In this document: piece after piece, positions 1,404 to 2,842 of the stretch
Numbering within the stretch: position 1 is the first letter of the stretch
Layout of the letters: every line of letters begins with the position of its first letter
Virus record (IMG/VR): IMGVR_UViG_3300030389_004697
Location: 1 to 29,648 of that record
Reading direction: 5' to 3' (one strand)
DNA length: 29,648 nt
DNA from: a virus
Notes under the pieces: generated by a model
The model's input: only the letters and a program-made list of their open reading frames with translations
What the model was told of the DNA's origin: nothing
Databases searched by the model: none
Made by a program: the position numbers and the translations under genes

Positions 1404-2842
1404 TAAAATGTACCAAATGGATTGCCTTCTGAGAAATCAATAATTTCGTCTGCTGCGACTTCAATTTCACTTGCCTTATCATATTTATCATTAAAACCAT
1501 CAGATAGTATTCTATCAATAGCATATTGAGCACCTGAAACTGTTCCAATTCCAAGTTCACCTGGTTGAAATTCTTTATTTGTAGAACCCAGTGTGAGAAT
1601 CTTATCATCCAAATCCCATTTCTTAACTCTTCCCCTTGCACCAGATTTTGAACCAACAACAAGTTCTCCGAACTGATAAGTTCCGATGCCACTTATGATT
1701 GCAGGACTTGAAACTGAAATAATTGGACTTGAAGTGTATCCAATACCAGCATCTGAAATTAGCACTCTGGAAATCCTATTATTATCAGCATCAATCTGAA
1801 CGACACCTGTTGCTGTAACTCCTGAAGATGGTGCTGATATTGTAACTGTTGGTGCAGTATCTGATGTATATCCAGATCCTTGTTCGGATACTGAGATACT
1901 ACCAATACCTGCAGAATTAGTTACAAGAACTGAAGTTGCAGCAGCACCTACACCAAATGTGGTTGAACCGATACCTGCAATTGTTGACAAGAAACTATTA
2001 ATTGTAATTGTTGGAGCAACAGTATATCCAGAACCTGGATTGATGAGTAGTATTTCTTTAACTGAAAATACATCAGCAACAGATGTTGTGATTGCGACTG
2101 CTGAAGCGTTTGTTCCACCTGCAGGTGCTGGTGTGATTGAAACGGTTGGAACTTTTGTATAACCAAATCCATCATTTGTAAGTTCAATTTTTCTAATATA
2201 TCCTGAAACTGTACCTACACCTAAACTTGCAGTTTGACCGACTGAGACAACTGATAGACTTGTCATATAACCATAATCAGTCATCTCATCATCTACTTCT
2301 TGTGCAATTGTCTCAAGTGCATCACCTGATATGTTGCTAAGTTCATCTTCAAGTTCGAATAGTTCACACTTCAATTGATAGACATAATTTTTACCTAACT
2401 GATAAAAAGGTTGTTCATGCTCTACAAATTTAATTTCAAATACTCTTTGTCCTAACGGGAAAAATATTAAGTCTCCTTCGCAAGGTCTTGTTGCAATTTC
2501 TCTTTCACTTGAAGGCAAGTCTGCTAAAAATGTGCTTATAAAATCTTCAAATCTTTCTTTTGATATTGTGACTGTTAACTCATCTTTTAAACTCATTCCA
2601 AATTTAGTCATAATATCACCAGCACCAGTATATCCTTCATAGGTATTGATATATGCTTCAATCGCATAGTTATCATTAAATGTAGATGACTGAACTTCAG
2701 TTAATATTTCATCTTTCGATAGAATTTTTCTAGGTAGATAGATTACATCTACACCATAAATTTGTAATTGTTCATTGATTAAACTCTGAACAAGTCTCTG
2801 CTCACTTTGTGATCCTTGTAGAAAAAAGGGATTTAATGCCAT
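1403..2842 (-). CDS. 14: Neck protein gp14, enlarged by an internal repeat domain
   Basis: Head completion/neck protein: in T4, gp13 and gp14 close the filled capsid and form the tail-docking platform. The N-terminal 165 residues track T4 gp14 closely: [10 protein letters not shown] (62-71) against T4 [18 protein letters not shown] (123-130) against GDLIYFPM, and PFYQLG (145-150), which is identical. At 479 residues it is almost twice the T4 length (256). The extra sequence is mostly a block of four repeats with a G-x-GYT core (about 214-383), followed by a module with a SGA core (about 395-445). It ends in a short acidic tail with NPFG. The gene starts six bases after the gene 13 stop, and no strong ribosome binding site is visible. 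Confidence 0.93.
   Translation of the reverse strand: [479 protein letters not shown]
1482..1489 (-). promoter_or_regulatory. Candidate late promoter upstream of gene 15
   Basis: GATAAATA read on the minus strand fits the T4-type late promoter core (T4 TATAAATA; cyanophage NATAAATA). It lies inside gene 14, 78 bases before the gene 15 start. Because it also encodes ordinary residues (around KYDK), chance occurrence is possible. Confidence 0.4.
1695..2205 (-). repeat. Four G-x-GYT repeats inside gene 14
   Basis: Within gp14 four units of roughly 40-60 residues carry the cores [26 protein letters not shown] and GIGYTSSP. Each is followed by a beta-strand-like P-x-[IV]-x-I/V stretch and an Ala/Gly/Thr-rich segment. 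The units have diverged in DNA sequence and are recognised at protein level only. Confidence 0.8.

Follow-up and report, generated by a model that had tools for sequence, protein, structure and literature searches.

In the sea, cyanophages of the T4 type are very common. To our knowledge the neck of these phages is known only by analogy with T4. In T4 the gp14 protein forms a hexamer beneath the gp13 dodecamer, its core comprises residues 55–88 and 113–177, and its arm (residues 178–256), disordered in the isolated protein, is packed against gp15 in the virion (PMC12270204, available text). In the same text T4 fibritin binds domain III of gp13 (residues 193–238), not gp14. Cyanophage gp14 has been reported from virions of S-SZBM1 (neck protein 198, 291 aa) and S-CREM2 (stopper) in the available parts of PMC9146016 and PMC10665884.

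Extra material at the head-tail joint is found in several phages, including the gp82-81-80 fibres of A-1(L), the collar protein gp13 of Milano and the fibritin of T4. As far as the available text goes, these are separate proteins attached to the neck (PMC10966104, PMC10491603), unlike the protein described here, in which the stopper itself carries an insert. Phage Ig-like domains are beta modules present on unrelated virion proteins in variable number (Fraser et al. 2006, as cited in the available text of PMC8718954 and PMC10684548).

Domain architecture of gp14

The window, by which we mean the whole 29,648-base virus record analysed here, has a T4-like gene order with all genes on the minus strand: gp6, a 4271-aa baseplate-wedge-type protein, gp8, a 2515-aa protein, small ORFs, gp13, gp14, gp15 and the small terminase subunit. 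The gp14 gene (head closure Hc2, stopper; 1403–2842, minus strand, 479 aa; phrog_460, E 1.7e-117) lies between gp13 (head-tail adaptor Ad2; 2849–3688, minus strand, 279 aa; phrog_211, E 8.8e-48) and gp15 (tail sheath stabiliser; 606–1403, minus strand, 265 aa; PF16724, E 2e-90), as expected for T4 gp14/Hc2. All window features given below are also on the minus strand. The 4271-aa protein (14017–26832) contains a YHYH domain at residues 1283–1378 (E 1.8e-18). The 2515-aa protein (4856–12403) belongs with phrog_358, a family of unknown function, and has a DUF4815 match (E 5.4e-55). A 112-aa ORF (4284–4622) matches the L-shaped tail fibre assembly family phrog_3304 (E 3.2e-34).

The gp14 core (residues 1–165, 2348–2842) is T4 gp14-like by Pfam, PDB, alignment and fold matches. 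Residues 3–167 match the T4 neck protein family (T4_neck-protein, PF11649) at 106.1 bits against a cut-off of 25 (E 2.7e-30), and residues 3–162 match T4 gp14 in the PDB in a profile search (E 9e-23). A first-pass annotation of this DNA had recognised these 165 residues, and had also pointed to the length of 479 residues against 256 in T4-like gp14; both observations hold. The likeness to T4 gp14 (PDB 9LU4–9LU7, 9MKB) extends to the gp13-gp14-gp15-gp16 order and to an arm following the core. The arm differs, having 79 residues in T4 and about 314 in the window, where it contains a barrel, four repeat units and a conserved tail.

The core is followed by a linker of low predicted confidence (residues 166–192, 2267–2347; pLDDT below 50 for residues 167–190). 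The repeat is described by a 43-position profile, built from relatives, with a 43-residue consensus and a G-x-GYT-x-x-P core. This profile finds four units within residues 213–398 at 30–47 bits each: unit 1 at residues 213–253 (2084–2206, 47.2 bits), unit 2 at 259–305 (1928–2068, 35.3 bits), unit 3 at 312–350 (1793–1909, 30.2 bits) and unit 4 at 356–398 (1649–1777, 37.0 bits). Their G-x-GYT cores lie at residues 225, 270, 322 and 366. None of 1845 shuffled gp14 proteins reaches 12 bits with the unit profile, the best scoring 9.7. The four units proposed in the first-pass annotation are thus real, and the block is slightly larger than the 1695–2205 given there, running from 1649 to 2206. Residues 203–393 contain 27.7% serine plus threonine and 8.3% charged residues. 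No tandem repeat was found in this block at the DNA level by TRF.

The repeat block lies between the core and the end of the C-terminal arm, which docks gp15 in T4. The last residues of unit 4 can already be taken as a barrel strand, the barrel profile starting at residue 383. The return strands of this small C-terminal barrel occupy residues 394–447 (1502–1663), as defined by a profile of repeat-less gp14 proteins. The conserved C-terminal tail (residues 448–479, 1406–1501), defined by alignment and ending in a 12-residue stretch, is by analogy with T4 (PMC12270204, available text) presumed to be the gp15-docking arm. Repeat-less gp14 proteins are present in the cyanophages S-CAM1, S-CAM3 and S-RIM44 (292 aa) and S-BM3 (302 aa). 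In these the rest of the arm can be seen: a barrel-like segment of small size, then a conserved tail that has DFTExNPFG followed by a few more residues. An arm profile made from 55 distinct repeat-less gp14 proteins matches residues 383–479 of the window protein at 65.3 bits. The extra length is therefore not made up of repeats alone, as had been proposed; the insertion is genuine, but the extra part also holds the C-terminal barrel, which is present in repeat-less cyanophage gp14 proteins and does not align to T4. Some four-unit gp14 proteins (555–557 aa; L065, 1275–2939, and similar loci) have another, unrelated insert (about 85 residues) in a barrel loop further along, as seen in L065.

The GxGYT module in other virion proteins

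Among the 12 window proteins scanned with the unit profile at 12 bits or above, the 4271-aa protein is the only one besides gp14 to contain units, of which it has three. A profile of the whole block matches this protein in four places (E 1e-9 to 2e-5). One copy is at 14560–14700 (E 1.4e-7; unit profile 25.1 and 17.6 bits at residues 4007–4110) and another at 14704–14874 (E 5.8e-6), and further copies are at 20131–20646 (E 1.8e-5) and 23158–23535 (E 1.1e-9). The gp8-like protein has one GQGYT motif, which is not called by the unit profile. The earlier suggestion that gp14 shares its modules with the baseplate is thus borne out in part, for the 4271-aa protein.

A scan of whole records found the module in virion proteins of eight of nine phages, including four with a unit-free gp14. 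The number of places is 7 in P-SSM2, 9 in S-T4, 18 in P-HM2, 14 in S-RIM2, 7 in S-CAM1, 7 in S-BM3, 12 in S-RIM44 and 2 in Mosig, and zero in the T4-like control GiZh. In PHROGs the module occurs in 13 families, covering head closure, tail fibre, baseplate, hub and other virion structural proteins as well as proteins of unknown function. None of 21 pattern matches in bacterial genomes was confirmed as a relative of the module.

The module is also associated with both neighbours of gp14. It is present in 8 of 315 complete ORFs at the gp13 place, all eight of which adjoin a repeat-less gp14. In the one that was aligned (L227), the insert follows the position of T4 gp13 residue 77, and phrog_460 matches the gp13 insert at 3e-9. 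The insert-bearing gp13 proteins (L227, 434–1501; L228, L229, L231, L237, L238, L241 and L243) are about 353–356 aa long with the insert at about residues 82–164. The adaptor of S-CREM2, ORF132, has 1128 nt (about 375 aa) in Table 3 of PMC10665884 and is much longer than the gp13 of the window. The gp15 protein of the SAR11 phage Mosig (L375, 186–1784, minus strand; 532 aa) has one unit at residues 507–531 (28.9 bits); homology to gp15 ends near residue 251 and is followed by a C-terminal extension that ends in this unit. Residues of about 300–470 in the same protein look LamG-like by eye, and Pfam gives no support for this.

Unit number and insertion site

With tblastn, relatives of the window gp14 were found in 2333 phage records, 144 of which have one place that spans 80% or more of the query. 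The best 60 matches listed are all cyanophage or marine-virus records. The gp14 proteins of P-SSM2, S-SRM01, S-T4, P-HM2 and others (phrog_460) have the same architecture and insertion site as the window protein. S-SRM01 gp14 is 54% identical to it, P-SSM2 51%, S-T4 45% and P-HM2 37%; P-SSM2 has four units as in the window and P-HM2 differs in having three. The repeat block is therefore a lineage-wide conserved feature of the P-SSM2 type and is not peculiar to the window phage.

Unit counts were made for 362 of 369 gp14 proteins, the seven truncated ones being left out. As the proteins come from scans centred on five queries and on 18 named phages, the numbers are not population frequencies: 108 proteins have four units, 77 three, 89 two, 2 six and 86 none. 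In six of the two-unit proteins, which have the array at the same site as the window (site A), further degenerate units fall below the cut-off and two is an undercount. Among the 18 named phages there are no units in six, two units in four, three in one and four in seven. The counts differ between lineages, and one fixed unit number everywhere, which the first-pass annotation had weighed against its own proposal, is rejected.

There are two insertion sites. Site A lies before barrel strand 2 (193 proteins, including that of the window) and site B after strand 2 (83 proteins). At site A the segment FGELVVGS follows the units in the window protein and its lineage, and at site B the equivalent VGEEIVGD precedes the units in S-RIM2, ACG-2014d and ACG-2014e. 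The units therefore occupy two different loops of one barrel. The gp14 proteins of these last three phages have the same module and barrel as the window protein and differ in having two units, at site B.

In 62 four-unit proteins, each of the 248 units has as its closest counterpart the unit with the same number in another protein. Judged by these sequences, the array is old and fixed within the lineage of the window. Active slippage of a tandem repeat is rejected, both on this result and on that of TRF. Unit order is kept across proteins with repeat blocks down to about 42% identical to that of the window, and the G, Y and P positions are conserved. Mean pairwise identity is 39.7–61.4% for the repeats and 72.7% for the gp14 core. 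In the six-unit proteins (L079 and L050) units 1, 2 and the last are recognisable, with the extra units in between.

In a core-only tree of 56 rows, which leaves out about three quarters of the four-unit representatives as well as L087, L094 and L098, site B as a single clade is marginally rejected (p-AU 0.048), and sites A and B together as a single clade are not rejected (p-AU 0.12). In a first tree of 71 rows, with half of the four-unit representatives left out, site B needs two changes. The case for independent origins of the site A and site B arrays is weakened, as far as these trees suggest. The gp14 core of ACG-2014e (L090) groups with that of the repeat-less S-RIM44, yet the protein has two site B units like those of S-RIM2; its arm may be a recombinant.

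Predicted structure

We predicted the structure of the window gp14 using AlphaFold2 (65 sequences). Residues 191–447 mostly have a pLDDT of 90–98 and the core about 55–77, with an overall pTM of 0.53. When the repeats were modelled alone (51 sequences) the pLDDT was 93.0 and the pTM 0.86. The repeats are thus confidently predicted to form a separate beta domain, which the first-pass annotation had suggested looking for. In the model, long strands of about 20 residues are linked by the GYT-x-x-P turn and one short strand. The modelled core is of low confidence and resembles T4 gp14 (Foldseek E 1.9e-6 to 9LU5; VIA Z 10.0 to 9LU7 over 128 residues, rmsd 5.5). Beyond gp14 and stoppers, Foldseek found nothing with the whole model. 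The gp14 barrel has weak similarity (Z 4–5) to the barrels of EF-Tu/aIF2-gamma, ATP synthase and the JBD30 baseplate. No cyanophage gp14 structure was found in the copy of the PDB searched.

Searched against solved structures, the repeats-only model gave no Foldseek match under E 0.6 and scored at most Z 3.0 in VIA-align, and the repeat profile had no match among the sequences of solved structures under E 1 (best E 1). The best VIA score, Z 3.0, is to antibody constant domains (76 residues, rmsd 3.4) and is too weak to count. The GxGYT module resembles the phage Ig-like domains in its variable number and in its presence on virion proteins that are otherwise unrelated, but differs in that no Ig-type Pfam profile matches residues 213–398. 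There is no family for the module in Pfam or NCBIfam, residues 213–398 having no Pfam match up to E 10, and no binding-partner or lectin family was found for the gp14 repeats in these databases. No phage paper on the motif was found in the open-licence PMC library, judged by title. A missing match to a solved structure does not prove that the predicted fold is new.

Possible roles of the repeats

We propose that the repeat block is a mobile, exposed GxGYT surface module that has been placed repeatedly at the head-tail joint and behaves like the phage Ig-like domains, a reading to which we give a probability of about 50%. Decoration of the neck surface is the likeliest role of the block, ahead of a whisker function. 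From its observed sequence, position, predicted fold and recurrence we infer how it might be placed, exposed and used. The array would interrupt the C-terminal barrel at a surface loop. Six copies of gp14 would, by analogy with T4, form the stopper ring under gp13 with the C-terminal arm reaching gp15. Outside the DNA channel, the barrels and their knobs of four units would appear as six compact beta knobs around the joint. The likely job would be a general surface function such as has been proposed for phage Ig-like domains: weak, non-specific contact with polymers of the cell surface or environment, or a shield for the joint.

About 190 residues in each of six copies should not fit in the DNA channel, so the domain would lie outside it, either free in solvent, which we favour, or packed against gp15 and the sheath. 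That inserts occur in different loops, and also in gp13 and gp15, is consistent with an exposed surface. Decoration is favoured because the loops differ, neighbouring proteins also carry inserts, between zero and six units are tolerated, unit number and gp15 length show no common trend and the module is used throughout the virion. The exposed role suggested at first pass is compatible with these insertions and with the sharing among virion proteins; exposure itself is deduced from them. A module borne by a stopper, for which we found no Pfam or NCBIfam entry and no solved-structure match, is yet present elsewhere among the virion proteins of these phages, fibres and baseplates included. Structural and binding data on this small, well-bounded domain would help to annotate many giant virion proteins of unknown function. 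The unnamed module deserves further attention, as does the way it has come to the head-tail joint repeatedly.

The chief competitor, possible but clearly less probable, is a structural brace, in which barrel and repeats wrap and stiffen the gp14-gp15-sheath joint in the manner of an enlarged T4 gp14 arm. The array sits in the arm equivalent to T4 residues 178–256, which binds gp15 in the virion (PMC12270204, available text), and by this analogy the domain could be buried there instead of exposed. The positional fixity of all 248 units is also what an interface would show. However, the same joint works with 0, 2, 3, 4 or 6 units, the units are in different loops in two lineages, and the repeats are less conserved than the core. 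Nor does gp15 length follow the unit number: the median is 265 with four units, 261 with two at site B, 269 with none and 334 in the three-unit P-HM2 group.

More speculatively, the surface module may be taken further. The GxGYT repeat could be an undescribed beta-repeat fold serving as an all-purpose surface module of cyanomyoviruses, one that became fixed in gp14 on more than one occasion and was placed in gp13 and gp15 as well, and forming a built-in six-knob collar where T4 has fibritin; we hold this doubtful.

A neutral passenger, that is a promiscuous module persisting without a job, would agree with the frequency of repeat-less lineages (80 loci) and with a unit number and site that vary between lineages. 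We think it improbable, as unit order and the G, Y and P positions are kept across distant repeat blocks.

The whisker-like role raised in the first-pass annotation is very improbable, also in the form of gp14 knobs that replace fibritin and, for example, hold the tail fibres before infection. Fibritin_C (PF07921) was not found in the window or in any of the 17 cyanophage or SAR11-phage records searched, and is found in a T4-like control; a review, in the part available, lists wac among the genes missing from cyanomyoviruses and mentions an unpublished isolate with whiskers (PMC2984593). Cyanophage and SAR11-phage gp13 proteins also lack T4 residues 171–190 and 196–215 (all or all but one of 10, in a region where the alignment is weak), near the fibritin-binding domain III. 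These deletions and the lack of fibritin leave room for another neck decoration. They do not make gp14 one, because phages with a repeat-less gp14 (S-CAM1, S-CAM3, S-RIM44, S-BM3) lack fibritin equally. Moreover, T4 whiskers attach to gp13 and not to gp14, and four units predicted as one compact domain would be too short.

Host-specific receptor binding by neck knobs is the least likely role. In its favour, the module does occur in proteins annotated as tail fibre. Against it, change among the units is slow and follows their position, unlike that of a hypervariable array, and the same strain, Synechococcus WH7803, is the recorded host of S-BM3 and S-CAM1 with no units and of S-T4 and S-SKS1 with four. 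Infection of that host thus does not depend on the units.
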